Positions 22,496 to 43,555 of a stretch of DNA of 58,265 bases are shown here, piece by piece. The number at the start of each line of letters is the position of its first letter. The first letter of the stretch is position 1. The stretch is from Marmoricola sp. (lineage in GTDB: Bacteria > Actinomycetota > Actinomycetes > Propionibacteriales > Nocardioidaceae), in contig NZ_JAOPXI010000077.1 of the NCBI RefSeq assembly GCF_025965215.1, positions 1-58,265 on the forward strand, read 5' to 3'. A program made the position numbers and the translations under genes. The notes under the pieces were generated by a model that had not been told where the DNA came from, did not search any database, and saw nothing but the letters and a program-made list of their open reading frames with translations.

Positions 22496-22504
22496 GGAGC
22501 TGAC

Positions 22505-23275: not shown

Positions 23276-23365
23276 TGCCCGATTTGTCACCGGTCTAGGG
23301 AAGCTGCCTCGCAACCTCGCACATCGGCCTACGATGAGGAAAGGTTCGGGGAGGAGCCACAGGAC

Positions 23366-25156: not shown

Positions 25157-25614
25157 GTCGTCAGCCGAGCCTGCAGGACCGATACTTCCCGGACATGCCG
25201 TGCTTCGGCTGCGGCCCCGCCAACGAACGTGGCCTGCGTCTGAAGAGCTACGACCGCGAGGACGGCACCGCGGTTGCGCTGTTCACGCCATGGCCCGAGC
25301 ACGACAACGGGATGGGCTTCCTCAACGGAGGCATCATCGCCACGATCCTGGACTGCCACAGCGCAGCGGTCGTCACCCACGAGGCGTACAGCCGGGGCTG
25401 GCCGGCGTTGCCCGGGGCGGCGTTGCCCTACGTCACAGCCGGTCTGGACGTCAGCTACCTGCGGCCGGCTCCGCTGCACGAGACCGTCACGCTGACGGCG
25501 CGGGTCACCGAGGCCTCCGAGTCCGAGATGGTCGCGGAGGCCTGGCTCGAGTGGGACGACAAGGAGCGGGCCCGGGGGAGTGCGGTCTGGAAGCGCTGGC
25601 GCCCGCGTAGTTGA
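25153..25614 (+). CDS. PaaI-family hot-dog thioesterase
   Basis: The 153-residue hot-dog-fold protein begins with a short [14 protein letters not shown] segment common in actinobacterial acyl-CoA thioesterases. The core [17 protein letters not shown] corresponds to the catalytic HGG-xx-aD helix region. It probably hydrolyses an acyl-CoA. The start overlaps the stop of the PAS/receiver gene by four bases, so it may share that message. The N-terminal two-cysteine motif is a family feature, not an oddity of this copy. Confidence 0.86.
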
Positions 25615-25619
25615 GCCGC

Positions 25620-25647
25620 TACACCTGTTTGGTGTATGTCTGGTGTA
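25620..25647 (+). promoter_or_regulatory. VapB/VapBC operator half-sites
   Basis: TACACC (25620-25625) and GGTGTA (25631-25636) form an inverted repeat, and GGTGTA recurs at 25642-25647, running into the vapB start codon. This arrangement is typical of toxin-antitoxin autoregulation. Confidence 0.6.
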
Positions 25648-25862
25648 TGGCTCGAACCAACATTGACCTCGACGAAGACCTCGTTGCCGAGGTCATGCGA
25701 CGTTACGGCGTGAAGACGAAGAAGGACGCCGTGGATCTCGCGCTGCGGCGACTTGTCGGTACGCCGCTGACCGCCGACTTCTTCCACAGTCTTGAAGGCA
25801 TCGGCTGGGACGGGGACCTTGATCTTCTTCGGGGCGGCGATCGCGTCGGGTCGATCGGGTGA
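25647..25862 (+). CDS. vapB: VapB-type antitoxin
   Basis: The 71-residue protein has the ribbon-helix-helix N-terminus [20 protein letters not shown], followed by [15 protein letters not shown], as in PF09957 VapB antitoxins. The C-terminal part ([19 protein letters not shown]) fits the toxin-binding tail. It should neutralise the PIN toxin encoded next and repress the operon at the GGTGTA repeats directly upstream. The frame is open back to 25611, but ATG 25647 gives the standard antitoxin N-terminus. The stop overlaps the toxin start. Confidence 0.9.
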
Positions 25863-26263
25863 TTGTGATCGACACCTCCGTCTGGGTGGACTACCTCCGC
25901 CGCACGCCGGGGAGTGCGCGCGACGCGATGCGCGCGCTGTTCGCCGGCCCACATGACCAGCTGGTCATGTGTGAACCAGTGGCGTGCGAGCTACTCGCCG
26001 GCCCGGCTGATGTATCCGTCGTTGCCAGCATCGAACGACTGGTGAACGGTCTTCCCACTCTGGGCGTCGAACCTGGTCTGGATTTCCGTAGCTCGGCCAG
26101 CATCTATCGGAACGTGAGAAGGTCGGGCAGGACCGTTCGCAGCCTGAACGACTGTCTGATAGCGGCCGTAGCACTGAGGCATGACGCAACCGTCCTGCAC
26201 AAAGACGCCGACTTCGACGTCATCGCCGAGATCACCGGCCTGAAGGTCCGCTCATTGCTCTGA
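25859..26263 (+). CDS. vapC: VapC-type PIN-domain ribonuclease toxin
   Basis: The 134-residue PIN domain shows the acidic active-site residues in [11 protein letters not shown] (Asp 5), [10 protein letters not shown] (Glu), [11 protein letters not shown] (Asp) and a late Asp in [10 protein letters not shown]. VapC toxins cut tRNA or rRNA when not held by VapB. The GTG start overlaps the vapB stop in GTGA, so the toxin is translated after its antitoxin. No sign of decay is seen. The pair is the only toxin-antitoxin system in the window. Confidence 0.92.
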
Positions 26264-26282
26264 CCTCGGGTGCCCTCGCTGC

Positions 26283-26288
26283 TAGGTT
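26283..26288 (+). promoter_or_regulatory. -10 box of a probable leaderless promoter (SRPBCC protein)
   Basis: TAGGTT lies seven bases before ATG 26296. Confidence 0.5.
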
Positions 26289-26295
26289 CCGGGGC

Positions 26296-26763
26296 ATGCG
26301 TGGATCCGTGAGCGTGCACATGGCCGCCAGTCCTCAGGCCGTCTGGGAACTGGTCAGCGACGTCACCCGGATCGGGGAGTTCTCGCCCGAGACCTTCGAG
26401 GCGGTCTGGCTCGGGGATGCCACCGGCCCAGCGATCGGAGCTCGCTTCAAGGGACACGTGAAGCGCAACGGTGTCGGGCCGACGTACTGGACCGTCTGCG
26501 AAGTGACCGCCTGCGTGCCCGGGGAGCACTTCGAGTTCGCCGTCGTGATGAACGGCCAGACGCTGAACCGCTGGAGCTATCGCCTCAAGCCGGTCGGTGG
26601 CGGCATGGAGGTCACCGAATCGTTCTCACTGCGTCCGAACGCGTTGTCCAAGGTCTATTGGGCACTGGCCGGGTGGCACCGGTCGCGGGCGAACGAGCGT
26701 GGGATGCGGCAGACCCTGGAACGGATCAAGGCGATCGCCGAGAAGAGCGGAGAAGCAGCATGA
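26296..26763 (+). CDS. SRPBCC-superfamily protein
   Basis: The 155-residue START/polyketide-cyclase-like protein begins with the usual V-x-M-A-A-S-P-Q-A-V-W-E-L-V-S-D-V pattern and ends in a long amphipathic helix. Such proteins bind hydrophobic ligands in a helix-grip cavity, and some are cyclases or lipid carriers. It overlaps the following zinc dehydrogenase by four bases (ATGA), so the two are probably co-expressed. The ligand is not predictable. A -10 box seven bases upstream of the ATG supports the start. Confidence 0.8.
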   Translation: MRGSVSVHMAASPQAVWELVSDVTRIGEFSPETFEAVWLGDATGPAIGARFKGHVKRNGVGPTYWTVCEVTACVPGEHFEFAVVMNGQTLNRWSYRLKPVGGGMEVTESFSLRPNALSKVYWALAGWHRSRANERGMRQTLERIKAIAEKSGEAA

Positions 26764-27923
26764 AGGCCGTGACCCTCACCGGGACCAGGCTCGGCGTCGG
26801 AGAGGTTCCGACGCCGACTCCCGATCGCGGGCAGCTCGTCCTCGACGTCGTGCGCTGCGGGATCTGCGGCTCTGATCTGCACGCTCGTCACCACGCCGAC
26901 GCGCTGGCCGACATCGGCGCCGAGATCGGGTACGACGGACTGATGCGGTCGAGCCAGATGATCGTGCTGGGCCACGAGTTCTCCGGGATCGTCACCGGAC
27001 GGGGCAAGGGCACCCGCCTGGCCGAGGGCACTCCGGTGGTCTCCTTCCCGCTGCTGCGTCAGGACGGCGCGATCCACACCACCGGGCTATCGGTGCACGC
27101 ACCCGGCGGGTACGCCGAACAGGTGCTGGTCCAGGACGCCCTCACGCTGGCGATCCCCAACGGTCTGGGCAGTGATGTCGCGGCGTTGACCGAGCCGCTG
27201 GCGGTCGGCCTGCACGCCGTACGCCGTGGCGAGGTGGGCAAGGGACAGGTCGCCGTGGTCATCGGCTGCGGGCCGGTCGGACTGGCCGTGATCATGATGC
27301 TCAAGGCCCAGGGCGTCCGCACGGTGATCGCCAGCGACTTCTCCGCCGGTAGGCGCGCACTGGCTTCGACCTGCGGGGCAGACGTCGTGGTCGACCCGGC
27401 TACCGAGTCGCCGTTCTCCTCGGCCTCGAGCCACGGGCACCTGGTCACCGCCCCCGAGGTCTTCGAGCTGGGTGTGTCCACCGTCGAGAAGCTGGCCAAG
27501 CTGCCGGTCCCGTGGCCGCTGGTGTGGCGAACGGCCGAGAAGCTGGGGGCTGCCGATCCGAAGCACCCGGTGATCTTCGAGTGTGTCGGCGTGCCCGGCG
27601 TCATCGAGGAGATCATCAGCACGGCGCCCGTCTTCTCGCGGGTGGTCGTCGTCGGCGTCTGCATGCAGCCCGACACCATCCGTCCCTCGATGGCGATCAA
27701 CAAGGAGATCGATCTCCGGTTCGTCCTGGGCTACACCCCACTGGAGTTCCACGATGCGCTGCACCTGCTCGCCGAGGGCAAGGCCAACGCCGAACCGATC
27801 ATCACCGGCGTCGTCGGGCTGGACGGGGTCGCCGGCGCGTTCGAAGCTCTCGGCGACCCCGAGACCCACGCCAAGATCCTGATCGACCCGACCAGTGCTG
27901 CCAGCACGCCCGTCCCTCGCTGA
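26760..27923 (+). CDS. Zinc-binding alcohol dehydrogenase-like protein
   Basis: The 387-residue MDR enzyme has catalytic-zinc ligands CGICGSD (about 33-39) and GHEFSG, and a Rossmann motif VIGCGPVGLAV. Unlike the dehydrogenase at 21479, the structural-zinc loop is absent. About 50 residues between the Rossmann core and the C-terminal part (from SPFSSASSHGHLV through VWRTAEKLGAAD) form an insertion relative to typical ADHs; this longer form is common in actinobacterial relatives. It starts in the stop of the SRPBCC gene. The substrate is unknown. Confidence 0.85.
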   Translation: MKAVTLTGTRLGVGEVPTPTPDRGQLVLDVVRCGICGSDLHARHHADALADIGAEIGYDGLMRSSQMIVLGHEFSGIVTGRGKGTRLAEGTPVVSFPLLRQDGAIHTTGLSVHAPGGYAEQVLVQDALTLAIPNGLGSDVAALTEPLAVGLHAVRRGEVGKGQVAVVIGCGPVGLAVIMMLKAQGVRTVIASDFSAGRRALASTCGADVVVDPATESPFSSASSHGHLVTAPEVFELGVSTVEKLAKLPVPWPLVWRTAEKLGAADPKHPVIFECVGVPGVIEEIISTAPVFSRVVVVGVCMQPDTIRPSMAINKEIDLRFVLGYTPLEFHDALHLLAEGKANAEPIITGVVGLDGVAGAFEALGDPETHAKILIDPTSAASTPVPR

Positions 27924-28006
27924 GGCGATGTATCAATGGTGCCGCTCGCGGCTCCTGACAAGGTGACGCCCGGCATCGGGTCGGGCCGAACCGAGGGAGC
28001 ACCACC

Positions 28007-28429
28007 ATGTATGGACCGGACGACAACATCGACTTCAGCTCGATCCCGTGGCAGCTGCTGATCAGGGCCCGCTACGCCTACGAGGTCGACGCCGTGATCG
28101 CCTCGATCGTGGCGCGACAGGTCACCGCCTTCGCACCGACCAACGTCGCCCACGCCGTGACGGCCGCCGCGCGCGAGTCGGTCTCGGGTGCCAACCGCGA
28201 GCACGCCACCCCCGAGGCCAAGGTCACGGCGCTCTCGGCTGTGGCCGACTACGACGACAACTGGTGCGGGACGCCGTACCCGCACCACCCGCACTTCTCC
28301 GAGCTCGGCGACCCGCTGAGCGAGGTAGTCATCGCCCAGTCCCTCGAGCTCGTCCAGCGGGCGGGTTCCGAGGAGCTTCAGAAGACGCTCGGGTCGGCCC
28401 TGGCCGACCACGCCGCGGCGCTGGTCTGA
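28007..28429 (+). CDS. Conserved-looking protein of unknown function
   Basis: I do not recognise this 140-residue acidic protein. It has no signal peptide or membrane helix. The first 75 residues look helical (WQLLIRARYAYEVDAVIASI), followed by an unusual CGTPYPHHPHFSELGDP stretch with three histidines and a cysteine, and a helical end. The codon usage is typical of the window and a GGGAG ribosome site precedes the ATG, so it is probably real. It stands alone between the zinc dehydrogenase and the AraC gene. Confidence 0.65.
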   Translation: MYGPDDNIDFSSIPWQLLIRARYAYEVDAVIASIVARQVTAFAPTNVAHAVTAAARESVSGANREHATPEAKVTALSAVADYDDNWCGTPYPHHPHFSELGDPLSEVVIAQSLELVQRAGSEELQKTLGSALADHAAALV

Positions 28430-28484
28430 CATCACGGAACGGGGTTGCTGGGCTTGCCCGGCGCGACGTGACACGATCGCGACC

Positions 28485-28979
28485 GTGACCAGCAGCCCCG
28501 ATTCCGGGCAACGCGCCTTGGACCAGTACCTGCGCGATCTCGCGCTGCTGCGCCAGGTCCGGGACCGGATGGATCGCGAGTACGCCCAGCCGCTGGACGT
28601 CGAGTCGCTGGCACGTGGCGTGCACATGTCGGCCGGTCATCTCAGCCGTCAGTTCAAGCAGGCGTACGGCGAGTCGCCGTACAGCTATCTGATGACCCGC
28701 CGGATCGAGCGCGCGATGGCGCTGCTGCGGCGGGGGGACCTCAGCGTCACCGAGATCTGCTTCAAGGTCGGCTGCTCGTCGCTGGGGACCTTCAGCACCC
28801 GGTTCACCGAGCTCGTCGGGATGCCGCCCAGCACCTATCGCGAACGCGCCGCGGAAGCCGGCGCCGAGATGCCGTCGTGCGTGGTCAAACAGGTGACCAG
28901 ACCGATCCGTCGGACATCGGACAGGGCGCAATCGATCAGGAATGGAGAAGCACCGATCCCGGGGCCGCATCTAGCGTGA
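28485..28979 (+). CDS. Short AraC-family transcription regulator
   Basis: The 164-residue protein is mainly the double-HTH AraC DNA-binding domain (about 20-120): LDVESLARGVHMSAGHLSRQFK, then the signature region with GDLSVTEICFKVGCSSLGTFSTRF. No ligand-binding domain precedes it. The C-terminal 40 residues are basic and low in pattern. The gene ends five bases before a VOC-family gene, and a second VOC gene follows, so it probably controls or senses through them. GTG 28485 follows CACGAT by seven bases. Confidence 0.88.
   Translation: MTSSPDSGQRALDQYLRDLALLRQVRDRMDREYAQPLDVESLARGVHMSAGHLSRQFKQAYGESPYSYLMTRRIERAMALLRRGDLSVTEICFKVGCSSLGTFSTRFTELVGMPPSTYRERAAEAGAEMPSCVVKQVTRPIRRTSDRAQSIRNGEAPIPGPHLA
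28972..28977 (+). promoter_or_regulatory. -10 box of a probable leaderless promoter (first VOC gene)
   Basis: TAGCGT, inside the end of the AraC gene, lies seven bases before ATG 28985, so the VOC genes can be expressed apart from the regulator. Confidence 0.5.
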
Positions 28980-28984
28980 TCGTC

Positions 28985-29395
28985 ATGGACATCACCATTC
29001 ACACGACCTTCCTTGCGCACACCGATCCCGAGGCTTCCCTGGCGTTCTACCGCGACGCCTTGGGCTTCGAGGTCCGCAACGACGTCGGCTACAACGGAAT
29101 GCGCTGGATCACCGTGGGGCCCGTCGAGCAGCCCGACATGAGCATCGTTCTCGAGCCGCCGGCTGCCGACCCCGGCCTGTCCGAGGACGAGCGCACGACG
29201 ATCGCCGAGATGATGGCGAAGGGCACCTATGCCCGGATCATCCTGGCGACGCCTGATCTCGACGCGACCTTCGAGAGACTCGAGGCCACCGGGGCCGATG
29301 TGATCCAGGAGCCGACAGACCAGCCGTACGGCGTGCGCGACTGCGCGTTCCGCGACCCGGCCGGCAACCACATCCGCATCAACGAGGTGCGCTGA
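28985..29395 (+). CDS. VOC-family (glyoxalase-like) protein
   Basis: The 136-residue protein has one VOC module pair: HTDPEASLAFYRDALGFEV at the N-terminus and CAFRDPAGNHIRI at the end, the latter with the Glu/Asn region that often holds a metal ligand. Family members are glyoxalases, dioxygenases or resistance proteins, and many in actinobacteria sit beside AraC regulators. It follows the AraC gene by five bases and precedes a second VOC gene by one base. A frame reaching back to 28877 overlaps the AraC gene and is rejected. Confidence 0.87.
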   Translation: MDITIHTTFLAHTDPEASLAFYRDALGFEVRNDVGYNGMRWITVGPVEQPDMSIVLEPPAADPGLSEDERTTIAEMMAKGTYARIILATPDLDATFERLEATGADVIQEPTDQPYGVRDCAFRDPAGNHIRINEVR

Positions 29396-29396
29396 G

Positions 29397-30017
29397 ATGG
29401 CGACGATCAACGCAGTGACGCTGGAGGTCCCGGATACCACCGCCGCAGAAGCGTTCTACGAGGCTCTGGGAGTCAGCTCCCTGGTGAAGGTTCGCAGCGC
29501 AGACGGCCCGAGCACCGGCTTCCGTGGATACACCCTGTCGGTCGTCGTCGCCCAACCGAACATCGTGGACGCGTTCGTGGCCGCGGCCCTCACGGCCGGA
29601 GCCACGACCATCAAGCCCGTCACGAAGAGCTTCTGGGGCTACGGCGGCGTCGTCCAGGCACCCGACGGAGCCATCTGGAAGGTCGCGTCGTCCGCCAAGA
29701 AGGACACAGGGCCGGCCAGCCTCGAGTTCGAGGACCTGGTGCTCCTGCTCGGGGTGGCGGACGTCAAGGCGACCAAGCAGTTCTACGTCGACCGCGGACT
29801 GGCGGTGGAGAAGAGCTACGGAAGCAAGTACGTCCAGTTCGCCAGCTCGCCGGGCACAGTGACGCTTGGGCTCTACAAGCGGGCTGCCTTGGCCAAGGAT
29901 GCCGGCGTACTGGCAGAAGGCAGCGGGTCGCACAGGATCACGGTCTCGAGTGACGCCGGGTCGTTCACCGATGCCGACGGCTTCGTCTGGGACAGTTCCG
30001 GTCTGAACGGGGCCTGA
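29397..30017 (+). CDS. Two-module VOC-family protein
   Basis: The 206-residue protein has two glyoxalase-like modules: one near the N-terminus (LEVPDTTAAEAFYEALGV) and one from about 115 (LVLLLGVADVKATKQFYVDRGLAVEK). The first ends in QAPDGAIWKVASS, where metal ligands are not obvious. It is the third gene of an AraC-VOC-VOC set; the gap to the previous gene is one base. Function is unknown. Double-VOC proteins of this kind are often annotated as glyoxalases without proof. Confidence 0.82.
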   Translation: MATINAVTLEVPDTTAAEAFYEALGVSSLVKVRSADGPSTGFRGYTLSVVVAQPNIVDAFVAAALTAGATTIKPVTKSFWGYGGVVQAPDGAIWKVASSAKKDTGPASLEFEDLVLLLGVADVKATKQFYVDRGLAVEKSYGSKYVQFASSPGTVTLGLYKRAALAKDAGVLAEGSGSHRITVSSDAGSFTDADGFVWDSSGLNGA

Positions 30018-30087
30018 GGATGTGCTCCTGGTGGCTGATGGGCACGCTCGTGACCGACAACGACGCGACCGTGCCCGCGGTGCCGCT

Positions 30088-30100
30088 GGTCACCGTGACC
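30088..30100. promoter_or_regulatory. GGTCAC inverted repeat upstream of the UvrA-like gene
   Basis: GGTCAC and GTGACC are separated by one base, 25 bases before the GTG start at 30126. It is a candidate operator; the regulator is unknown. Confidence 0.35.
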
Positions 30101-30125
30101 CCGCGTACGACAACAGGGAGAGAAC

Positions 30126-32483
30126 GTGTCTCAGCATCCGGCTGACAGCCATGACCTGATCCGGGTGCACGGTGCCCGGGTGAACAACCTGAAGGACATC
30201 AGCGTCGAGATCCCCAAACGACGTCTGACGGTGTTCACCGGGGTGTCCGGCTCCGGCAAGAGCTCGCTCGTGTTCGATACGATCGCTGCGGAGTCGCAAC
30301 GCCTGATCAACGAGACCTACAGCAACTTCCTGCAGGGCTTCATGCCCTCGCTGGCGCGGCCCGAGGTCGACCTCCTCGACGGGTTGACGACTGCGATCCT
30401 GGTGGACCAGGAACGGATGGGCGCGAACCCGCGCTCGACCGTGGGGACCGCGACCGACGCGAACGCGATGCTCCGGATCCTGTTCAGCCGGATCGGCACC
30501 CCGCACATCGGCTCGCCGACGGCGTTCGCGTTCAACGTGCCGACCCGGGTGGCCAGCGGGATGATGAAGACCGACAAGGGCCAGGGGTCGACGTCGGTGG
30601 TGCGCAACGCGGTCTACCAGGGCGGGATGTGTCCCAGGTGCGAAGGCATGGGGTCGCTGAACGACTTCGATCTCACCGCCATCTACGACGCCGGCAAGTC
30701 GCTCGCCGACGGTGCGCTGCTCGTTCCGGGCTACAGCATGGACGGCTGGTACGGGCGGATCTTCAGCGGCGCCGGCTTCGACATGGACAAGCCGGTCGGC
30801 ACGTACTCCGCGAAGGACCTCAAGAAGCTGCTGTACGGCGAGCCGGAGAAGATCAAGGTCGACGGCGTCAACCTGACCTTCGAAGGCGTGCTCGTGAAAG
30901 TCCAGAAGTCGATGCTCTCCAAGGATGTCGAGTCGATGCAGCCGCACGTGCGCCGGTTCGTCGAGAGCGCGGTCACCTTCACCACCTGTCCCGACTGCGG
31001 TGGCACCAGGCTGTCGGAGCAGGCTCGATCCTCGAAGATCAACGGCAAGAACATCGCCGACGTGTGCTCGATGCAGATCAGCGACCTGGCCGAGTGGCTG
31101 CGGACGGTCAAGGACCCCGGCGTCGCACCGTTGGTGGCAGGACTGCAGCACCTGGTGGACTCCTTCGAGACGATCGGGCTCGGGTACCTGTCCCTGGACC
31201 GGCCGGCCGGCACGTTGTCGGGCGGTGAGGCTCAGCGCACCAAGATGATCCGGCACCTCGGCTCGTCGCTGACCGACGTCACCTACGTGTTCGACGAACC
31301 GACCATCGGCCTGCACCCCCACGACATCGACCGGATGAACGAGCTGCTGCTCCAGCTGCGTGACAAGGGCAACACCGTGCTGGTCGTCGAGCACAAGCCC
31401 GAGGCGATCGCGATCGCCGATCACGTCGTCGACCTCGGACCCGGCGCTGGCACCGGGGGAGGACAGGTCTGCTTCGAGGGGACCGTCGCGGGCCTGCGTT
31501 CCAGCGGAACCATCACCGGTCGGCATCTCGACGACCGGGCATCTCTCAAGGCCGACATACGGGGTGGCAACGGGGCGCTCGAGATCCGCAGGGCCTCGAC
31601 TCACAATCTGAAAGGCGTCGACGTGGACCTGCCTCTGGGGGTTCTCTGTGTCATCACGGGCGTCGCCGGCTCGGGGAAGAGCTCGTTGATCCACGGCTCG
31701 GTCGCCGGACGTGCCGGCGTCGTGGTGATCGACCAGAGCGCGATCAAGGGGTCCCGGCGGAGCAACCCCGCGACGTACACCGGACTGCTGGAGCCGATCC
31801 GCAAAGCCTTCGCCAAGGCGAACGACGTCAAGCCTGCGCTGTTCAGTGCGAACTCCGAGGGCGCCTGCCCCGCGTGCAACGGAGCCGGGGTCATCTTCAC
31901 CGAGCTCGGAGTGATGGCCACGGTGGAATCGGTCTGCGAGGAGTGCGACGGGAGGCGTTTCCAGGCCGCCGTGCTGGAGTACAGGTTCGGTGGGCTCAAC
32001 ATCGCCGAGGTGCTCGCGATGCCGGTGAGCGAAGCCCGGGACTTCTTCGCCGAGGGCGATTCCGCCCTGCCGGCCGCACACAAGATCCTGGAACGGCTCG
32101 CGGACGTGGGTCTTGGTTATGTCAGCCTGGGCCAGGCGTTGACGACCCTGTCCGGTGGGGAGCGGCAGCGCCTCAAGCTCGCGACCCAGATGGCTGAGAA
32201 GGGCGACATCTACGTCCTGGACGAACCCACGAGCGGCCTGCATCTCGCCGATGTCGAACAACTGCTCGGATTGCTGGACCGACTGGTCGACTCAGGGAAG
32301 TCGGTGATCGTCATCGAGCACCACCAAGCAGTGATGGCGCACGCCGACTGGATCGTCGATCTGGGTCCCGGAGCCGGCCACGACGGCGGCAAGGTCGTCT
32401 TCGAAGGAACGCCGGGTCAGTTGACGTCGGCGAAGAAGAAGACGTTGACCGGCGAGCACCTGGCGGCGTACGTCGGGGCGTGA
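30126..32483 (+). CDS. Short UvrA-like ABC ATPase
   Basis: The 785-residue double-ABC protein of the UvrA superfamily has Walker [10 protein letters not shown] (about 39) and GVAGSGKSS (about 515), signature motifs TLSGGEAQR and TLSGGERQR, and Cys pairs in [14 protein letters not shown] and [14 protein letters not shown]. It is about 170 residues shorter than typical UvrA, because the region holding the UvrB-binding domain is reduced. Such UvrA2/DrrC-like proteins are tied to DNA-binding-drug tolerance rather than core excision repair. No uvrB or uvrC is near. GGGAGAG precedes the GTG start. The dif-like site lies 55 bases after its stop. Confidence 0.88.
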
Positions 32484-32537: not shown

Positions 32538-32565
32538 AGCGCCGATAAGGAACATTATGTCAACA
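32538..32565. other. dif: Candidate dif site (XerC/XerD chromosome-dimer resolution)
   Basis: The 28-bp stretch has the dif layout: an 11-bp left arm AGCGCCGATAA, a six-base centre, and an 11-bp right arm TTATGTCAACA. CGCCGATAA and ACATTATGTCAA agree with the actinobacterial dif consensus as I remember it, and ATAA-N6-TTATGT-AA agrees with E. coli dif. It lies in the 128-base gap between the UvrA-like and TetR genes. A chromosome normally has one such site, opposite the origin, where XerC/XerD resolve dimers under FtsK control. Confidence 0.75.
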
Positions 32566-32611: not shown

Positions 32612-33199
32612 TCACGGGGTAAAGAGATCCCCGAACAACGCAAGGAGCGTCGATTCGGCCTGCTGACGGGCCAGGGCTGGATCGTCAGCATGGGCGACCA
32701 GGAGAGCGGCTTCGATCAACGCACTGAGAACCAATTGGCCCAGCAGGCTCGCAGTCGTCGTACCCGACCGGACCGGAACACTGTTGGCTGCCAGCGCCAC
32801 CACCAGGCTCAACCCGTACTGCGCCTCGATCGAACGCCACTCCTGCCAGCCCAGGACGGCTGGCGCATCGGTCAGGGCGATCTGCTGGGTCTCGGGGCGT
32901 GCGCAGATGTCGAGGAACGCCTTGATAGCTACCGGCACCAGATCCTCAGGCGCCACGCCGTCGATCGCAGCGACCACATCGGTCATGAAGTCGGCCTCGA
33001 GCTCTTCGAAAACGGCCCGGAACAAGCCCTTCTTGTCGCCATAGTGGTGGTGCAGAGCTCCCCTGGTCACTCCGGCCGCGGCCACGATCTCCTCGGCCGG
33101 GACGTCAGCGAAGCTCCGGGCGCCGAACAGTGGTCGTGCAGCGCGCAGCAAGGCCGCTCGGGTCGCCGCGGTCCGTTCCTGCTGGCTACGTGCGGGCAT
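32612..33199 (-). CDS. TetR-family transcription regulator
   Basis: The 195-residue protein has an N-terminal HTH (about 10-55): TRAALLRAARPLFGARSFADVPAEEI then GVTRGALHHHYGDKKGLF. The C-terminal ligand-binding part resembles the TetR_C_33-like group. ATG 33199 (MPARSQQERT) is the standard start; a longer frame upstream overlaps the hydrolase gene. It overlaps the hydrolase stop by 14 bases and is in the same minus-strand unit, so it likely controls it through the AGATACAT repeat upstream. The ligand may be the hydrolase substrate. Confidence 0.9.
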   Translation of the reverse strand: MPARSQQERTAATRAALLRAARPLFGARSFADVPAEEIVAAAGVTRGALHHHYGDKKGLFRAVFEELEADFMTDVVAAIDGVAPEDLVPVAIKAFLDICARPETQQIALTDAPAVLGWQEWRSIEAQYGLSLVVALAANSVPVRSGTTTASLLGQLVLSALIEAALLVAHADDPALARQQAESTLLALFGDLFTP

Positions 33200-34064
33200 C
33201 GAGGCCGATGAACTCCGCGACAAGCCCGACGAGGACCTCGGGCTGGTCCACCGGGACCAGCGTGGCCGCGTCCGGCACCGCAACGATGCGCGCGTCGGGC
33301 AGGATTGCCGCGAGCCGCTCGGCCAGGGACATCGGGAAGAACCGGTCCTCGGCCCCCCAGGCCAGCAGCACGGGCCTCTCGAACTCCGGCAATACCTCCG
33401 CGGCTGCCAGCGTGTGCCGCCGGTGCACGCCGGACAGGAACCGCGCCAGGTCGCGGCGTACGGCGCGCGAGGTCAGCATCGGTTCCATGAAGGAGTCGAC
33501 GAGGTCGTTCGGCAACCGCTTCTTCGACAACCACCCGTACGCCATCGGAAGCTGCTGGGCGAACCGGAACCGCAGGCTCTGGCCGACCAACCATACGGCC
33601 CCCGGAATCCTGGCCAACCAGGTCAGCGGCCGGAACATCAGCGGGAAGAAGTACTCGAAGCTGTCCGACGGGGTCAGCACGACGCGGCCCACGCGCTCGG
33701 GCCGCCGGGTGAGCATGATCTGAGTGAGTGCTCCCCCGGTGTCGTTGGCAACGATGGTGACGTCGTCCAGGTCGAGGCGTTCGAGGAGCTCCGCGATCAG
33801 GTCGGCAACGCCGGTCGGCGTCAGGTCGGCCTCCGGCATTGCGATCGCGTGGGCGCCGAGCGGCCAGTCGACGGTGATACACCGGGCTCCCCCGGCGACG
33901 AGCCCCGGTACGACGTCACGCCACACGTCGGCATTCACGAGCAGCCCTTGGACGAACACGATCACGCGGCCGTCGGCCGGCCCGTTCTCGAAGAGCTGCA
34001 CCCGACCGGTGCCGAGGTCGAGCACTCGACCGCGACCGAGGGTTGCTGGACGGTGAGATGTCAT
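33186..34064 (-). CDS. Alpha/beta hydrolase with an Asp nucleophile motif and no catalytic His
   Basis: The 292-residue alpha/beta-hydrolase fold resembles haloalkane dehalogenases: the nucleophile elbow reads VANDTGG, with Asp 108 in place of Ser, and the acid site reads LAWGAEDRF (about 240). At the expected histidine the sequence is DAATLVPVDQP, with Thr (about 268) where GxGHxxxxxxP is normal. It may be a degenerate enzyme, a binding protein or a subfamily with another base. It is the first gene of a two-gene unit with the TetR regulator. Confidence 0.78.
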   Translation of the reverse strand: MTSHRPATLGRGRVLDLGTGRVQLFENGPADGRVIVFVQGLLVNADVWRDVVPGLVAGGARCITVDWPLGAHAIAMPEADLTPTGVADLIAELLERLDLDDVTIVANDTGGALTQIMLTRRPERVGRVVLTPSDSFEYFFPLMFRPLTWLARIPGAVWLVGQSLRFRFAQQLPMAYGWLSKKRLPNDLVDSFMEPMLTSRAVRRDLARFLSGVHRRHTLAAAEVLPEFERPVLLAWGAEDRFFPMSLAERLAAILPDARIVAVPDAATLVPVDQPEVLVGLVAEFIGLDART

Positions 34065-34072
34065 ACATATAA

Positions 34073-34093
34073 AGATACATGCTGTATGTATCT
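34073..34093. promoter_or_regulatory. TetR-type operator of the hydrolase-tetR unit
   Basis: AGATACAT and ATGTATCT are perfect 8-bp arms around five bases, nine bases upstream of the hydrolase start, in an AT-rich patch holding the promoter. It is a likely site for the TetR protein encoded downstream. Confidence 0.6.
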
Positions 34094-34118
34094 ATCGCAA
34101 CAACCCCCGGTCGTCGGA

Positions 34119-34562
34119 TCAGTGCCAGTCGGAGATCTGCAGGTCGTGTGGCTCGGGCGCACCCGTCCCCGTCTCGAGCAGCTGCTTGAGGCTGAGCAGG
34201 AAGGTCGCCCACTTCGTACTGCAGTGGTGCATGAACTCGACCGGCTCACGCCAGTCGGCGTGCTTGAACAGGACGATCGTGTAGTCGTCGACCTGGCTGA
34301 TCTTGAAGCCGACCCTGGTGCCGACCCACTCCTCGGGCCCGTCCACGACTTCCCAGGTCACCTGCTCGGGCGGAGTCAGCTCAAGCACCTTCATCGTGAA
34401 GTACCCCGGGGCGAACCGGAACGTGATCTCTCCGCCGACCTCGGACGTGCCCGAGGTGTCACTGGCCCACCAGCCGGCCAGCCCGTCGATCGTGCTGAGG
34501 GCGTCGTAGACCTTGTCGGGTGAGGAGTCCTTGACTCCGATCCTGTGCAGGATGTCCACCAT
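34119..34562 (-). CDS. SRPBCC/AHSA1-type protein, ArsR-linked
   Basis: The 147-residue helix-grip protein has the AHSA1 pattern: DILHRIGVKDSSPDKVYDAL at the N-terminus, LAGWWASDTSG, and a C-terminal helix with KWATFLLSLKQLLE. It is the last gene of a minus-strand set SRPBCC-ArsR-SRPBCC; six bases separate it from the ArsR stop. ArsR-SRPBCC pairs are common in actinobacteria, where the SRPBCC protein probably binds a hydrophobic ligand. The function is otherwise unknown. The upstream part of a longer frame belongs to the ArsR gene and is rejected. Confidence 0.83.
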   Translation of the reverse strand: MVDILHRIGVKDSSPDKVYDALSTIDGLAGWWASDTSGTSEVGGEITFRFAPGYFTMKVLELTPPEQVTWEVVDGPEEWVGTRVGFKISQVDDYTIVLFKHADWREPVEFMHHCSTKWATFLLSLKQLLETGTGAPEPHDLQISDWH

Positions 34563-34567
34563 TGCCG

Positions 34568-34930
34568 CTACTCCTTCTTGTCGTTGTTCGTTGATGTGTC
34601 TGAAGCGGCCTGTAGGGCCTCTGCGAGCTTCTTGATCCGCCGCAGCCGGGCATCCCACGAGGAGCCGACGTCTGCGAGCTGGGCTACGGCCCGTGCCAGC
34701 TGGGCCTCGTCCACGCCGTACCGCATCTCCCGGCCGGCGGGCGCGACATGGACCAGGCCGACCCGGTCGAGCACCGCGAGGTGCTTCGCGACCGCCTGCC
34801 GCGTGACCGGGAGCCGACCGCTCAGACCGCTCGCCGACGCGGGACCGTCGGAGAGGATCAGGTCCAGGAGCTTGCGGCGGGTCGGATCCCCGATCGCCGA
34901 CCACAGGTCGTCGTCGACGACCGTGGTCAT
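34568..34930 (-). CDS. ArsR-family transcription regulator
   Basis: The 120-residue winged-helix regulator begins DDLWSAIGDPTRRKLLDLIL, with recognition helix VTRQAVAKHLAVLDRVGLV. The metal-binding ELCV(C/G)D motif of true ArsR/SmtB sensors is missing, so it is a non-metal member. It is encoded between two SRPBCC genes, overlapping the first by four bases. Twin TGCAAC-N5-GTTGCA repeats cover the operon promoter, so it probably represses its own operon. Confidence 0.9.
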   Translation of the reverse strand: MTTVVDDDLWSAIGDPTRRKLLDLILSDGPASASGLSGRLPVTRQAVAKHLAVLDRVGLVHVAPAGREMRYGVDEAQLARAVAQLADVGSSWDARLRRIKKLAEALQAASDTSTNNDKKE

Positions 34931-35382
34931 GACGAGACCAACCCTCCGACGTAGGCCTCCAACAGCGGGACGAAGTGGTCCCAGCCCTGCGAATGATCCT
35001 GGTACTCGTGGTCCAGGACCGCTTCGTCCCAGCCGAGCTCGCTCCAGCCGGCATCGGACACCCGGACCGTCGTGCCGGTACCGGACGGGACCAGGTCGAA
35101 GGTCACCAGCAGCGAGTTGCCCTCGACCGCGGACTCCCCCGGGGGCGCGCACCACCGGAACGAAAACCGGCGGGGCGGGTCGACCTCCACCACGGTGAGC
35201 AGGGCGACGTGGCCGGTCGCCCGATCCCCGAAGAGCAACTCCCCCGCGCCGCCCGGGACGACGTCGATCAGCGCCTCGTCCGACCACCACTGGCTGATGT
35301 GCTCGGGTCGGCTCACGACCTCGAACACCGTTTCCGGCGAGGCGTCCACGTGAATCTCGCGAGCAATGGTTCCGTGTTCCAT
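34927..35382 (-). CDS. SRPBCC/AHSA1-type protein, first gene of the ArsR operon
   Basis: The 151-residue helix-grip protein has AREIHVDASPETVFEVVS at the N-terminus, ISQWWSDEA, and a C-terminal helix DHFVPLLEAYVGG. It differs from the second SRPBCC protein of the operon (34119-34562), so this is not a simple recent duplication. It overlaps the ArsR start by four bases. Its promoter has two inverted repeats, one over the -35 box and one over the transcript start. Ligand and reaction are unknown. Confidence 0.82.
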   Translation of the reverse strand: MEHGTIAREIHVDASPETVFEVVSRPEHISQWWSDEALIDVVPGGAGELLFGDRATGHVALLTVVEVDPPRRFSFRWCAPPGESAVEGNSLLVTFDLVPSGTGTTVRVSDAGWSELGWDEAVLDHEYQDHSQGWDHFVPLLEAYVGGLVSS

Positions 35383-35395
35383 GTCATCCCACTTT

Positions 35396-35414
35396 CTGCA
35401 ACGTTTGGTTGCAG
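35396..35414. promoter_or_regulatory. Operator copy 2 of the ArsR-SRPBCC operon
   Basis: CTGCAAC-N5-GTTGCAG is a perfect 7-bp inverted repeat. It lies just downstream of the -10 box, over the expected transcript start. Confidence 0.6.
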
Positions 35415-35417
35415 ATG

Positions 35418-35446
35418 ACTCTAGGGGATGACCGCCGGATGTGCAA
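35418..35446 (-). promoter_or_regulatory. Promoter of the ArsR-SRPBCC operon
   Basis: On the minus strand TTGCAC (35446-35441) and TAGAGT (35423-35418) are spaced by exactly 17 bases. The transcript would begin about 30 bases before the start codon. Confidence 0.6.
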
Positions 35447-35458
35447 CCTTTAGTTGCA
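35442..35458. promoter_or_regulatory. Operator copy 1 of the ArsR-SRPBCC operon
   Basis: TGCAAC-N5-GTTGCA overlaps the -35 box. Together with the copy at 35396 it brackets the promoter, as expected for repression. Confidence 0.6.
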
Positions 35459-35460
35459 AC

Positions 35461-36345
35461 TTATCGAAGGTGGTCGATCAGGCTGCCCTGCTCACCGAAC
35501 AGCTCGGTGCGCCAACGATCGATCAGCTCGGTCGCGTCCCAGTCGTCGGGGTGGAAGCCCGCCTTGTTGTACGTCCGAAGCCTGTGTGCGATCTGACGAC
35601 TCAGGAACGGTGAACGCCGCAGCGCCCAGAGGCTCCGCACGAGGGTGACCGGGTTGTAGGTGGCCCGATCGCGAAGCATCGACCAGGTGGTCTGGGCAAT
35701 CACCTCGAGCACGAAGATGGCCGAGACGATCCGCATGGTCCAGATCCTCAGCCACTCCGGCCCGCCGGCTGCGCGGTAGACGTCGAACGCGACCGCCTTG
35801 TGCTCGGATTCCTCCAACGCGTGCCACAGCAGCAGCGATCGCACCTCGGTCTCGCCCAGGAGCGCCTGTGCCTCTGGCTTCTCCAGGAGGCACTCGGCCA
35901 GGGTGGCGGTGTAGTGCTCCAGGGCAGCCGTGATCGCCAAGCGCTGGTTCTTCGACAGGAACCTGTCCCCCAGCCCCAGCAGCCGTTTCACGTGCCGGTC
36001 GACCTTGGCGCTGCGATACCCCATCTGCGTCAGACGGTCATTGAGGTCGCGGTGCTCGCGTCCGTGCGAGACCTCCTGCCCGATGAAGCCGGCCACCTGG
36101 CTGAGCAGCTCCGGATCGGTGACCCTCGGCCTGCCATCGCGCACCGACCGGACGAAGAAGTCCTCCCCCTCGGGAAACATCCCGGAGAGTACGGCGACCG
36201 CGTGGCTCATCACCAGATCGCCGTCGACGTAGTGCTGGTGCCTGCTCCCGGTCGGGTAGCTGAACGCGATGCGTCGCGTCCTGACGTCGCGATGCGGCAC
36301 AGGGGTCGGCAGGTCCGATCGTGCGGGTTCCGGGCGCATATTCAT
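35461..36345 (-). CDS. Predicted metal-dependent hydrolase, PF10118 type
   Basis: The 294-residue protein of the PF10118 family looks like a helical di-metal fold. It has repeated Glu/His motifs GQEVSHGREH (about 92-101), ALEHYTATLAE and ALEESEHKAVAFDVY (about 175-190). The last is the ExxEH pattern. A hydrophobic helix near 205-225 could touch the membrane. Members are often linked to lipid or hydrocarbon metabolism and to TetR regulators; none is adjacent here. An inverted repeat sits two bases before the start codon. The reaction is unproven. Confidence 0.82.
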   Translation of the reverse strand: MNMRPEPARSDLPTPVPHRDVRTRRIAFSYPTGSRHQHYVDGDLVMSHAVAVLSGMFPEGEDFFVRSVRDGRPRVTDPELLSQVAGFIGQEVSHGREHRDLNDRLTQMGYRSAKVDRHVKRLLGLGDRFLSKNQRLAITAALEHYTATLAECLLEKPEAQALLGETEVRSLLLWHALEESEHKAVAFDVYRAAGGPEWLRIWTMRIVSAIFVLEVIAQTTWSMLRDRATYNPVTLVRSLWALRRSPFLSRQIAHRLRTYNKAGFHPDDWDATELIDRWRTELFGEQGSLIDHLR

Positions 36346-36347
36346 GA

Positions 36348-36366
36348 CTGTAACTCTCGGTTACAG
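36348..36366. promoter_or_regulatory. Operator at the PF10118 gene start
   Basis: CTGTAAC and GTTACAG are perfect 7-bp arms around five bases, two bases upstream of the start codon. The design is the same as the CTGCAAC-N5-GTTGCAG site 950 bases away, with one base changed in each arm. Confidence 0.55.
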
Positions 36367-36455
36367 GCAATGCCCAGACCCGGAACATGCGCACTCACAG
36401 GTCTCTCACAGCGAGTTGCTTGGTGAGACCGGCGCACTACCGGCAGGCTGGTCCG

Positions 36456-37952
36456 ATGCAGCAGGACGTGGTGCCCACCCAGGGACGGCTCCTCGGTCGA
36501 CCGCGCACGCTGTCGACCAACCTCCTGCTCGTGATGGTGCTGCTCGCGATCACGGCTGCGGCGATCTCCGGGATCGCCACCACGGTCTTGTTGCGCCACT
36601 ACCAGGGCGGTCGTCTCAACGATGACGTGCGCGCGTCGGTCCAGCGCGCGCTGCAGCACCCCGGGTTCGCCACGGCTCCCGGCCCGGACAGCCTCGGCGG
36701 CGGCCCTAATCAGCCCCGGGGTCAGGCCACCCAGACCCTGACGGCGTTGTTCCTGCCGGCGAGCCTGGGTCCCAGTCAGGGTGACGTGATCGACGAGCGC
36801 GGGCGTGAGGTAGTCCTGTCGAGCGCCGATCTCACCGCGATCCGCGACCACGTCGTCAACCATCCCGGCATCATCACGATCACCCTCCCCGGCGCGGGCA
36901 AGTACCGCCTGGCGACCGGCAAGCTCAGCCTCACCGACGGGTCGACGATCGACGTCGTCGCCGGCCTGCCGACCGCCCAGCTCGACGAGATGACCCGCAA
37001 GCTCGTGCTCTGGGCGATCGCGATCGCGATCGCCGTCGCCGTGCTGTCGGCCGTCGCCGGACGGTTCATCATCGCGCGTCAACTGCGCGGCCTGAAGACC
37101 GTCGCCGCCGTTGCCCACGACGTCAGCGAGCTGCCGCTCGCTTCCGGTCAGATCGAGGGGATCACCGGCGTACCGGAATCCGTGGCGGACGGGATCACCG
37201 AGGTCGGTCAGGTGGGCTTCGCGTTCAACAAGATGCTCCACCACATGGAGGACGCCCTCCAGGTCCGTACCGCCAGCGAGCAGCGGGCCCGTCAGTTCAT
37301 CGCCGATGCGTCCCACGAGATCAGGACGCCGCTGGCGGTCATCCGCGGCTTCGCCGACTTGGCCGAACGGGTGCCCGAGGGCGAGGAGGAGGCGCTGCGA
37401 GGGTCCATCGGCCGGATCCAGGGCTCGGCCCGAGAGCTCTCCACCCTGGTCGAGGACATGATGTCGCTGACCCGTCTGGACTCCGGCGGAACGCCGTCGC
37501 TGGGCGAGGTCGACCTCTCCGAGATCGCAGCGAACGCCCAGGAGGCCGCCGCCCTGCTGTACCCGGACCATGGCTGGGCTGTCGAGCTTCCGCCGACGCC
37601 GGTCCTCGTCGTCGGCGACGAGCTCGGACTGCGGCGCGTCATCACGAACCTGCTCGCCAATGCGGGAACCCACACGCCGGCCGGGTCGGCCGTCGTCCTG
37701 GCCATCGAGCCCGTCGGCAGCCGCGTCCGCATCGCCGTGACCGATGACGGCCCGGGGATCCCCGTCGAGCTCCAGGGACGGATCTTCGATCGGTTCGTCA
37801 GGGCCGACCAGGCCCGTACGTCGGGCACCGGTTCGGGACTCGGCCTGGCCATCGTCAAGGCGATCGTCGACAACCACCACGGCACCGTCTCGGTGCACAG
37901 CGACGCCGCCGGGACCTCGATCGTGGCGGACATCCCGATAGCGAGTGCGTGA
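36456..37952 (+). CDS. Orphan HAMP sensor histidine kinase
   Basis: The 498-residue membrane kinase has a first helix at about 22-45, an extracytoplasmic sensor region (about 46-175), a second helix (about 180-203, rich in Ile/Ala), a HAMP domain (about 205-265), and HisKA with the phospho-acceptor in ASHEIRTPLAVIRGF (about 286). The HATPase has N box LLANAGTHTP, G1 DDGPGIP and G2 GSGLGLAIV. All catalytic motifs are intact. No response-regulator gene is next to it, so its partner is elsewhere. The nearest receiver is the one at 23366, and no link is shown. Confidence 0.9.
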   Translation: MQQDVVPTQGRLLGRPRTLSTNLLLVMVLLAITAAAISGIATTVLLRHYQGGRLNDDVRASVQRALQHPGFATAPGPDSLGGGPNQPRGQATQTLTALFLPASLGPSQGDVIDERGREVVLSSADLTAIRDHVVNHPGIITITLPGAGKYRLATGKLSLTDGSTIDVVAGLPTAQLDEMTRKLVLWAIAIAIAVAVLSAVAGRFIIARQLRGLKTVAAVAHDVSELPLASGQIEGITGVPESVADGITEVGQVGFAFNKMLHHMEDALQVRTASEQRARQFIADASHEIRTPLAVIRGFADLAERVPEGEEEALRGSIGRIQGSARELSTLVEDMMSLTRLDSGGTPSLGEVDLSEIAANAQEAAALLYPDHGWAVELPPTPVLVVGDELGLRRVITNLLANAGTHTPAGSAVVLAIEPVGSRVRIAVTDDGPGIPVELQGRIFDRFVRADQARTSGTGSGLGLAIVKAIVDNHHGTVSVHSDAAGTSIVADIPIASA

Positions 37953-38138
37953 GGGCAACGATCACTCCGCACTCACGGACAAAAACACCCATTCGGTCAA
38001 TTCCCTCGGCGAACCGCTGTTATCGCTGAGGATTCTCGCTAGGGTTTGGTTCAGAACGCGATCACCGGGGAGATGCTGCACCACGAGGTGACCGTGTGGT
38101 CCGCGATGAAGACCTGCGAGCAGAACGTGAGAGTTGCG

Positions 38139-38975
38139 ATGGAAATCCCGATTTACGACCTCAATGACGGTACCGAGCTGCCCGCTGTCGGCTTCGGCAC
38201 CACCGGCCTCCAGGGTGCCGGCGGTCTGGACGCGATCGTCAGCGCTATCGAGTCCGGGTACCGCCTGATCGACACCGCCGTGAACTACGGCAACGAGATG
38301 ACCGTCGGCGAAGCGATCCGCCGTTCGGGCGTCGCGCGCCCCGAGTTCCGGGTCGCGAGCAAGCTGCCCGGCCGCCACCACGCCTACGACGACGCGATCG
38401 TCTCCACTCACGAGTCCCTGGGCCGTCTCGGCCTGGACCACATCGACCTGCACCTGATCCACTGGCCGAACCCCAAGCGCGACGAGTACAGCGAGGCCTG
38501 GCGCGCACTGGTCGACCTGCAGCGCGACGGTCTGGTCACCACGATCGGCGTCTCGAACTTCACCGCCGAGCACCTCGACCGGATCATGGACACCAGCGGC
38601 GTCGTACCCGCGGTGAACCAGATCGAGATGCACCCGTACTTCCCGCAGGAAGAGCTCCGCGCCGTCCACGACTCACTCGGCATCCGCACCGTCGCCTGGA
38701 GCCCGCTGGCCAAGGCGAAGGCACTCTTCGAGGAGGACGCCGTCCGCAACGCAGCCGAGTCCCACGGGGTCTCCCCTGCGCAGGTCGTGCTCCGGTGGCA
38801 CTTCCAGCTCGGGTCGGTCCCGATCCCGAAGTCGACGGTCGTCGCGCACCAGCTGGCCAACGGCGACATCTTCGAGTTCGAGCTCAGCGACGACGAGGTC
38901 GCAGCCATCTCGGCCCTGGGACGCGAGGACGGACGGCTGTTCGACGGCGACCCCAACGAGCACTACGAGATGTGA
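38139..38975 (+). CDS. Aldo/keto reductase
   Basis: The 278-residue TIM-barrel reductase has the catalytic tetrad: Asp and Tyr in IDTAVNYGNE (about 46-53), Lys in ASKLPG (about 75) and His in LIHWP (about 110). NADPH-binding segments lie near VNQIEMHPY and PIPKSTVVAHQ. It reduces aldehydes or ketones. ATG 38139 gives the usual N-terminus (IPIYDLNDG); Met codons upstream (38106, 38046) extend it without homology. A strong hairpin follows the stop at 39007. The 186 bases before it hold its promoter region only. Confidence 0.9.
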   Translation: MEIPIYDLNDGTELPAVGFGTTGLQGAGGLDAIVSAIESGYRLIDTAVNYGNEMTVGEAIRRSGVARPEFRVASKLPGRHHAYDDAIVSTHESLGRLGLDHIDLHLIHWPNPKRDEYSEAWRALVDLQRDGLVTTIGVSNFTAEHLDRIMDTSGVVPAVNQIEMHPYFPQEELRAVHDSLGIRTVAWSPLAKAKALFEEDAVRNAAESHGVSPAQVVLRWHFQLGSVPIPKSTVVAHQLANGDIFEFELSDDEVAAISALGREDGRLFDGDPNEHYEM

Positions 38976-39006
38976 CGTCGGCGATTCGCCGAAAAGGCGC
39001 GTAAGG

Positions 39007-39035
39007 AAAGGCCACGGGCTTGCGTCGTGGCCTTT
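39007..39035 (+). terminator. Intrinsic terminator after the aldo/keto reductase gene
   Basis: AAAGGCCACG (39007-39016) and CGTGGCCTTT (39026-39035) are perfect 10-bp arms around nine bases, ending in TTTC, 32 bases after the stop. Confidence 0.75.
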
Positions 39036-39040
39036 CTGGC

Positions 39041-39046
39041 TACGAT
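39041..39046 (+). promoter_or_regulatory. -10 box of a probable leaderless promoter (cyclophilin)
   Basis: TACGAT lies seven bases before GTG 39054 and just after the upstream terminator. Confidence 0.55.
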
Positions 39047-39053
39047 CTGCGGC

Positions 39054-39746
39054 GTGATCCGACTTCGCGCCGTCGCCCTGGTCCTCGTCCCACTCGCGCT
39101 GGTCGCCGCGTGCGGCGGCTCCGGCTCCTCGGGCAAGACCATCACCGCGACTCTGCCGAAGTGCTCCTACCCGGTGAGTGGGCCGGCAGCGAAGACGGTG
39201 ACGCCCCCGCCGGGAAACCCTCCGTCGACGAACCCGAGCACGCTGGTCATCTCCACCAACGACGGTGACATCCCGATCACCCTGGAGCCCGCCACGGCCC
39301 CGTGCGCTGTGAACTCGTTCGTGTCCCTGGCCCAGCAGGGCTACTTCGACAACACCCGGTGTCACCGGCTGACCACCCAGGGCTACTACGTCCTGCAGTG
39401 CGGCGACCCGACCGGGACCGGCCGCGGCGGCCCGGGGTACAGCTTCGCGGACGAGCTCGTCAAGAACGACCCACGGCTCCAGCCCTGCGCCTCCGACGGA
39501 TCGGTGTGCACCTACAACAGCGGCACGATCGCCATGGCGAACGCCGGCCCGAACACCAACGGCTCGCAGTTCTTCCTGGTGTACGGCAACTCCCCGTTCC
39601 CGCCGGCCTATACCGTCCTGGGCCACATGGATGCGGCCGGCCTGGCAGTCGTCAAGGCCATCGCCGCCAAGGGCATCGGCACGGTCGGGACGGGCCCGGG
39701 CGACGGTGCCCCCAAGGACCCGGTGACGATCACCTCGGTGAAATGA
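39054..39746 (+). CDS. Peptidyl-prolyl isomerase, cyclophilin type, lipoprotein
   Basis: The 230-residue product has a lipoprotein signal (LALVAAC lipobox, Cys about 18). A Pro-rich linker follows, then a cyclophilin domain (about 65-225) with FDNTRCHRL, the GTGRGGPGYSF loop, IAMANAGPNTNGSQFF and YTVLGHM. It should help fold exported proteins at the membrane surface. GTG 39054 follows a TACGAT box by seven bases; an upstream ATG at 39027 would put the signal further inside. The last 17 bases overlap the convergent OsmC gene. Confidence 0.9.
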   Translation: MIRLRAVALVLVPLALVAACGGSGSSGKTITATLPKCSYPVSGPAAKTVTPPPGNPPSTNPSTLVISTNDGDIPITLEPATAPCAVNSFVSLAQQGYFDNTRCHRLTTQGYYVLQCGDPTGTGRGGPGYSFADELVKNDPRLQPCASDGSVCTYNSGTIAMANAGPNTNGSQFFLVYGNSPFPPAYTVLGHMDAAGLAVVKAIAAKGIGTVGTGPGDGAPKDPVTITSVK

Positions 39747-40176: not shown

Positions 40177-40206
40177 GCCACCAGCCTGCCATCCCGCGTC
40201 CAGCCT

Positions 40207-40212
40207 TAGTGT
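40207..40212 (+). promoter_or_regulatory. -10 box of a probable leaderless promoter (pepN)
   Basis: TAGTGT lies seven bases before the GTG start at 40220, which supports that start over the long upstream frame. Confidence 0.5.
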
Positions 40213-40219
40213 GGGACCT

Positions 40220-43549: not shown

Positions 43550-43555
43550 GAGGGC

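Follow-up and report, generated by a model that had tools for sequence, protein, structure and literature searches.

A probable chromosomal dif site in a Marmoricola contig and candidate lone XerD half-sites around dif in part of the Nocardioidaceae

Among actinobacteria, a dif site has been suggested for Frankia alni and dif sites have been predicted for 66 genomes, as set out in the passages of PMC3025954 drawn on here. In the corresponding passages of the reports on Corynebacterium aurimucosum (PMC2830990) and C. variabile (PMC3219685), dif was located with the architecture imparting sequences (T/C)GGGGGAG and G(A/T/C)GGGGGA, which both reports credit to Hendrickson and Lawrence 2006. A second role of a Xer recombinase at the terminus has been described in Bacillus subtilis, in which XerD unloads SMC (Karaboja et al. 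2021, as cited in the relevant passages of PMC12322038, PMC8357415, PMC10979009, PMC11898615, and PMC8242196). The locus analyzed here lies in the window, i.e. the whole stretch of 58,265 nucleotides of Marmoricola sp. contig NZ_JAOPXI010000077.1, and its features are collected in the table.

Table. Features of the window around the 28-bp element (positions are those of the window)
Feature	Position	Strand	Basis or remark
Probable pafA, 3' part, cut by the contig end	5..595	+	PF03136 match, positions 249-441; 32 kb from dif, same strand
Ten GGGGGAG copies, all left of dif	2704..31461	+	starts 2704, 6129, 8768, 9779, 14506, 15535, 20271, 20490, 25574, 31455
UvrA-like ABC ATPase, 785 aa	30126..32483	+	PF17755, PF00005; TIGR00630 675.8 bits, below the cut-off of 729.8
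Lone XerD half-site GTTATGTCA without XerC arm, inside the UvrA-like gene (codons GGT TAT GTC A)	32116..32124	+	sequence; one of two copies in the draft genome
Probable dif site, 28 bp	32538..32565	+	sequence; sole match in the draft genome; 22 of 28 bases as in Frankia alni dif
XerC-type arm AGCGCCGATAA	32538..32548	+	positions 5-11 identical in 101 aligned dif sites, partly by construction of the selection pattern
Central six bases GGAACA	32549..32554	+	101 aligned sites
XerD-type arm TTATGTCAACA	32555..32565	+	101 aligned sites
TetR-family regulator, converging on dif from the right	32612..33283	-	PF00440, PF21351
Fourteen GGGGGAG copies, right of dif	33731..57589	-	starts 33731 to 57583

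The 28-bp element reads AGCGCCGATAAGGAACATTATGTCAACA in the window, i.e. AGCGCCGATAA, GGAACA and TTATGTCAACA in succession, and it sits in a gap of 128 bp between the stop codons of the convergent UvrA-like and TetR genes; the original prediction, which had described two arms about a six-base centre in an intergenic gap, was exact in this respect. The element shares with the actinobacterial dif sites in the cited part of PMC3025954 the length of 28 bp, the 11+6+11 arrangement, and the cores CGCCGATAA and ACATTATGTCAA. When it was aligned to a suggested actinobacterial site, much as had been proposed, 22 of 28 bases were identical to the Frankia alni dif printed in that source, and the six differences were confined to the two outermost bases at each end and two bases in the first half of the centre. 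The 101 aligned dif sites vary at the outer ends of the arms and, from species to species, in the first three bases of the centre; positions 5-11 and 17-25 are invariant, largely because these bases were fixed by the search patterns, and the last three bases of the centre are nearly always ACA in a set originally collected with a pattern that contained ACA and allowed 3 mismatches. The right arm is presumably the XerD arm, an assignment that we take over from E. coli dif by analogy.

With the pattern CGCCGATAANNNACATTATGTCAA and up to 3 mismatches, the window gave one match and 100 shuffles of it gave none, and the best score in the window, that of dif, was 21 of 21 pattern bases, with the runner-up at 14 of 21. 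The draft genome to which the window belongs (3.6 Mb, 206 contigs, 94.8% complete) also gave a single match, with 0 mismatches, and none with the reversed control, so that the whole-genome scan agreed with the one copy anticipated for a chromosomal dif. A better dif match elsewhere, which would have told against the prediction, was not found in the draft genome; a looser core pattern added just two matches, both with 2 mismatches, compared with 1 for its reversed control. When up to 3 mismatches were allowed, the dif core was present in 52 of 58 relatives and, among genomes of the order, in 311 of 391, mostly as one copy, and the reversed control gave 0 among the genomes listed in these scans. 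At this threshold no dif core was found in 6 of the 58 relatives and in 80 of the 391 genomes. One of the six relatives lacking the 24-base pattern (G050) has a site without mismatches to the looser core pattern, which gave in the other five (G001, G022, G023, G025, and G032) 2-mismatch matches only, 15 in total versus 10 for the reversed control. The exact 24-mer occurs in seven stretches of the genome_contigs collection, from one Nocardioides, two Marmoricola MAGs, one Actinopolymorpha, one Frankia, and two Pseudofrankia.

The position of dif on the chromosome was taken from relatives. dnaA was located in 20 genomes, and after exclusion of G013, which is in 20 contigs, and of five genomes for which only rounded lengths were available, the shorter arc from dnaA to dif in the 14 single-contig relatives with exact lengths amounted to 0.417-0.499 of the chromosome (median 0.480), from which we infer that dif of the draft genome likewise lies at the terminus. 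The orientation of dif relative to dnaA was mixed in these 14 genomes. The reverse complement of the 28-mer contains TTGACATAATG, so that the element could be read as a promoter or another regulatory site for an adjacent gene, with a -35-like TTGACA on the reverse strand, but we give this reading almost no weight, because two convergent genes end on either side of the element, which is kept while its neighbours change between relatives and has a conserved position opposite dnaA.

The fragment at the left end of the window probably belongs to pafA and not to its paralogue dop, and all six single-contig family genomes (G003, G008, G019, G020, G030, and G035) have a pafA-type gene at a distance of 32-65 kb from dif and on its strand (distances subtracted by hand from the coordinates). 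In the genomes of other families compared, the shortest such distance was about 49 kb (G039) and the longest about 2 Mb (G046 and G056), and G053 yielded no pafA-type gene. The context genes on which the original prediction had leaned were recovered in part: the pafA fragment, a PafC/WYL pair, TatC, a HelY-type DEAD/DSHCT helicase, gcvP, and a MerR regulator are present, but fxsA, rbpA, and DUF151 were not confirmed, and the one DUF151 candidate that was tried, an ORF at 56327-56842 on the minus strand, had no Pfam match at 1e-8.

The convergence of polar motifs provided the best test of the terminus. Frequent 6-, 7-, and 8-mers were ranked by polarity in 40 samples of 20 kb (800 kb in total) from two complete relatives (G003 and G008), oriented from the origin to dif, and the top-ranked 7-mer found de novo was GGGGGAG, with 251 copies toward dif and 21 away. 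Outside the training samples, the ratio of toward to away was 24:1 in the window and 501:4 in 58 family dif regions from which those of the training genomes were excluded. A further 20 family loci gave 262:0, and 20 loci drawn from two other families of the order (18 + 2) gave 189:0, and the 98 loci besides the window totalled 952:4. In the window the motif switches strands between 31455 and 33731, with dif inside this interval, and 24 of 25 sites agree, the sole exception being a minus-strand copy at 15612. The density of copies pointing toward dif was 0.31 per kb in the 800 kb of training sequence and peaked at 0.91 per kb in the interval 1-2 kb away from dif, and the motif was sparse right beside dif (0.14-0.21 per kb in the first 500 bp). 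GGGGGAG therefore shows both the polarity toward dif and the enrichment near dif that are looked for in an FtsK-loading motif of the KOPS type.

By its sequence, GGGGGAG is the actinobacterial architecture imparting sequence that the cited passages on Corynebacterium already use for locating dif, as the two share the same core 7-mer and a bias to the leading strand; in the Nocardioidaceae it was found de novo, and it was counted around dif also in two other families of the order. Like the E. coli KOPS GGGNAGGG, it is G-rich, polar, and points at dif. However, GGGNAGGG itself was only weakly polar in the Nocardioidaceae (7:2 in the window and 103:56 in the training samples), so that the KOPS polarity which had been proposed as a check was found weakly with the E. 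coli motif and strongly with GGGGGAG. GGGNAGGG and GAGNAGGG were both rejected as polar markers, since they are weakly polar and GGGNAGGG ranked only 7th of 42 rearrangements of itself. GC skew was likewise not decisive as the main test: the skew between replichores was small in the two complete relatives that were sampled, with no sign change in one of them (G003), and the peak of the cumulative GC skew of the window at 32485 coincides with the convergent gene junction. The prediction had named the lack of any strand-skew change as a ground for giving it up; GGGGGAG flips at dif, and the cumulative skew does peak beside it.

Alternatively, the 28-mer could be a dif-like site of a plasmid, or it could serve a mobile element that uses Xer (IMEX) as its attachment site. 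Second dif-like sites do exist in some relatives, and seven of the eight stretches fetched are on contigs of 37-168 kb. Moreover, the closest relative, G016, aligns with the window at 93% from where the dif core starts and onward to the right, but just left of dif it has about 720 unrelated bp in place of the about 57 bp of the window. Even so, we regard a mobile origin as very improbable, because the draft genome has one copy, which lies in the pafA-tatC-helY and gcvP context and at which GGGGGAG reverses, and because the secondary sites differ in the centre, 5 of 11 ending in CG rather than CA.

The secondary sites form a group of their own (L117-L123 on the contigs of 37-168 kb and L124 on a contig of 7.6 Mb). 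In L118, two inverted dif-like sites at 4484 (-) and 10001 (+) enclose a block of genes that includes those for DUF305 and DUF4396 proteins, an arrangement that to us is reminiscent of the pdif modules of Acinetobacter. Twenty proteins around four of the secondary sites matched no replication, partition, or relaxase family in Pfam, and these are at most putative plasmid sites.

The surroundings of dif are variable. Thirteen of 20 same-genus relatives and 26 of 61 family loci matched the UvrA-like gene to the left of dif, on its XerC side, and the gene ended between 22 bp and more than 5 kb from the dif core, some contigs being cut there. Such a gene is also found near dif in G057 (L004), of another family, where a stretch of about 750 bp has about 80-87% of its nucleotides identical to the window and to five family members, which may suggest transfer. 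In the drafts G004, G012, G014, G017, G021, G029, and G036 (L099, L107, L109, L112, L116, and L125-L128), contigs end within about 0.02-2.7 kb of dif; G029 has two such contigs, identical in the first 18 bp rightward and diverged in their left flanks, possibly reflecting strain variation. The one close pair and the varying distance of the UvrA-like gene had suggested dif as a hotspot of insertion, but a comparison of all pairs showed both flanks to be variable with no clear contrast between left and right, and a hotspot is not claimed.

The protein genes for dimer resolution appear to be present as well. Of the two strongest Xer-like matches in the draft genome, the one at C46 scored 322 bits with the XerD model and 288 with the XerC model, and the one at C156, which runs to the contig end, scored 215 and 254 bits, respectively; which of them is XerC and which XerD is assigned provisionally from these relative scores. 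No Xer match in the draft genome exceeded the curated XerC or XerD cut-offs, which were exceeded in 4 of 14 control genomes with the XerD model and in 2 of 14 with the XerC model. One FtsK-gamma domain (85.7 bits) and one SMC (917 bits) were found above their cut-offs. Judged by these matches, the host probably encodes the XerC, XerD, and FtsK-gamma that a chromosomal dif calls for.

We conclude, with a probability of about 0.97, that the 28-mer is the chromosomal dif of this Nocardioidaceae genome, presumably used for the classic resolution of chromosome dimers by FtsK, XerC, and XerD. The original prediction that the element is the chromosome's dif and that the window spans the replication terminus is borne out by the single copy, the conservation, the mid-chromosome position in relatives, and the reversal of GGGGGAG, all of which were observed directly, as were the sequence of the element and the presence of the protein genes; binding, guidance, and recombination at this site would follow from established knowledge of dif, Xer, and FtsK. 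XerC would bind the left arm AGCGCCGATAA and XerD the right arm TTATGTCAACA, and FtsK would load on polar motifs, so that at division GGGGGAG on both replichores would direct it to dif. There, its gamma domain would activate XerD, and the two dif copies of a chromosome dimer would be recombined across the six-base centre to yield monomers.

The dif site itself is an element of an ordinary and known kind, and the part that deserves a test is the occurrence of lone XerD half-sites near it. The copy in the window has the octamer TTATGTCA, the core of the XerD arm, at 32117-32124. This octamer is rare far from dif (2 in the 800 kb of samples). In the 61 discovery loci, 20 lone TTATGTCA sites were found in 17 loci, 19 of them pointing toward dif, and the exact octamer numbered 19 versus 0.9 expected. 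The 20 held-out family loci had 4 lone sites toward dif and 0 away, versus 0.27 expected, and 20 loci of two other families had 0 toward and 1 away; the trait is thus replicated within the family, on small numbers, and is not general. Loci with lone half-sites include, besides the window, L106, L132, L133, L134, L136, L139, L140, L149, L153, L175, and L188, among others. The longer form GTTATGTCA occurs 44 times in 22 genomes, versus 8 for its reversed control, and a comparison of coordinates by hand put 12 of the 44 copies, spread over 9 of the 22 genomes, no more than 15 kb from dif. Eighteen of these 22 genomes belong to the discovery set, and the other four (G030, G035, G374, and G404) have no GTTATGTCA within 15 kb of dif, which counts against a general rule.

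In the pooled 81 family loci there were 24 lone TTATGTCA sites in 21 loci, and 60 of the 81 loci had no exact site. Half of the sites (12 of 24) are in the UvrA-like gene and, due to the fixed orientation of this gene, carry no independent information on polarity. The 12 sites elsewhere comprise 11 toward dif and 1 away. Within 550 bp of dif and outside the UvrA-like gene, a limit that was picked after seeing the data, 8 sites point toward dif and 1 away, and the rate far from dif predicts 0.11 toward. The site in the UvrA-like gene requires the codons GGT TAT GTC A. At the Tyr codon of the site, TAT was found in 9 of 24 genes, in all nine cases with GGT before and GTC after, and the other ten conserved Tyr codons taken together had TAT only 4 times. 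On the tree of the UvrA-like gene (19 rows), the trait took 6 changes, at least 4 of them forced by well-supported branches, and 226 of 500 label shuffles did as well, so that the trait is scattered and not clustered.

One tentative reading, which we hold to be unlikely as matters stand, is that some Nocardioidaceae keep, under selection, candidate XerD-only sites on the flanks of dif (GTTATGTCA), which would point at it from both sides, usually from about 0.2-5 kb away, and in some cases through rare codons of the UvrA-like gene (GGT TAT, then GTC). At such sites XerD would act alone near the terminus, for example in unloading SMC or as a polar barrier. The sites at which XerD unloads SMC in B. 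subtilis reportedly resemble lone XerD arms. A XerD-only site near dif would fit an SMC-unloading role by analogy: according to the passages cited above, XerD acts at the B. subtilis terminus apart from dimer resolution, and the Marmoricola draft genome has SMC and XerD-like genes, although the Nocardioidaceae sites are candidates known from sequence. Among the papers listed in a limited literature search, there was no sign of an actinobacterial report of SMC unloading by XerD or of such half-sites, which does not prove that none exists in print.

Our estimate for selected XerD-only sites is slightly reduced in view of the four genomes that are not part of the discovery set and of other octamers that score nearly as well. 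When octamers present in at least 8 loci were ranked by occurrence near versus far from dif, a procedure in which shared genes inflate all scores, GTTATGTC came first (20 toward and 2 away), and the less polar AAGAGCTC (45:12) and TTGCCGCA (19:12) followed closely. Such a result would also be expected if the lone TTATGTCA sites were non-functional, being either decayed dif copies left by insertions beside dif or else due to the local composition and to genes that the loci share, an explanation that we likewise consider possible but doubtful. It would accommodate the 12 of 24 sites at one codon of one homologous gene, and the lone site of G011 (L106), which directly follows the stop codon of the UvrA-like gene at the far end of the about 370 bp that separate this codon from dif. 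One-mismatch variants of TTATGTCA near dif in the discovery loci were also above the far rate, mildly, on both strands and without polarity (16 toward and 17 away versus 6.4 expected), with ratios of 11:22 for the held-out loci of the family and 15:7 for those of the other families. In contrast, the excess of the exact octamer is far larger, and six lone sites to the right of dif are inverted relative to it, whereas remnants of integration should keep the orientation of dif. Furthermore, the match to the XerC arm at the proper spacing in the 12 lone sites outside the UvrA-like gene averaged 1.83 of 9, which is the chance level, and TTATGTCA is preceded by G in 23 of 24 lone sites versus A in the 101 dif sites, where A was favoured by the dif search pattern. 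XerC-arm half-sites (GCCGATAA) formed no comparable pattern, with 4 toward and 2 away near dif and 3 in the 800 kb far from it.

The identification of dif places the terminus of a genome for which there is no assembled chromosome, and the reversal of GGGGGAG together with the 28-mer can serve as a locator of dif in high-GC actinobacteria whose GC skew does not suffice for this. Should the lone half-sites prove to be real binding sites, the second role of XerD at the terminus would extend beyond Bacillus, and the exact sequences given here are available for such a test.
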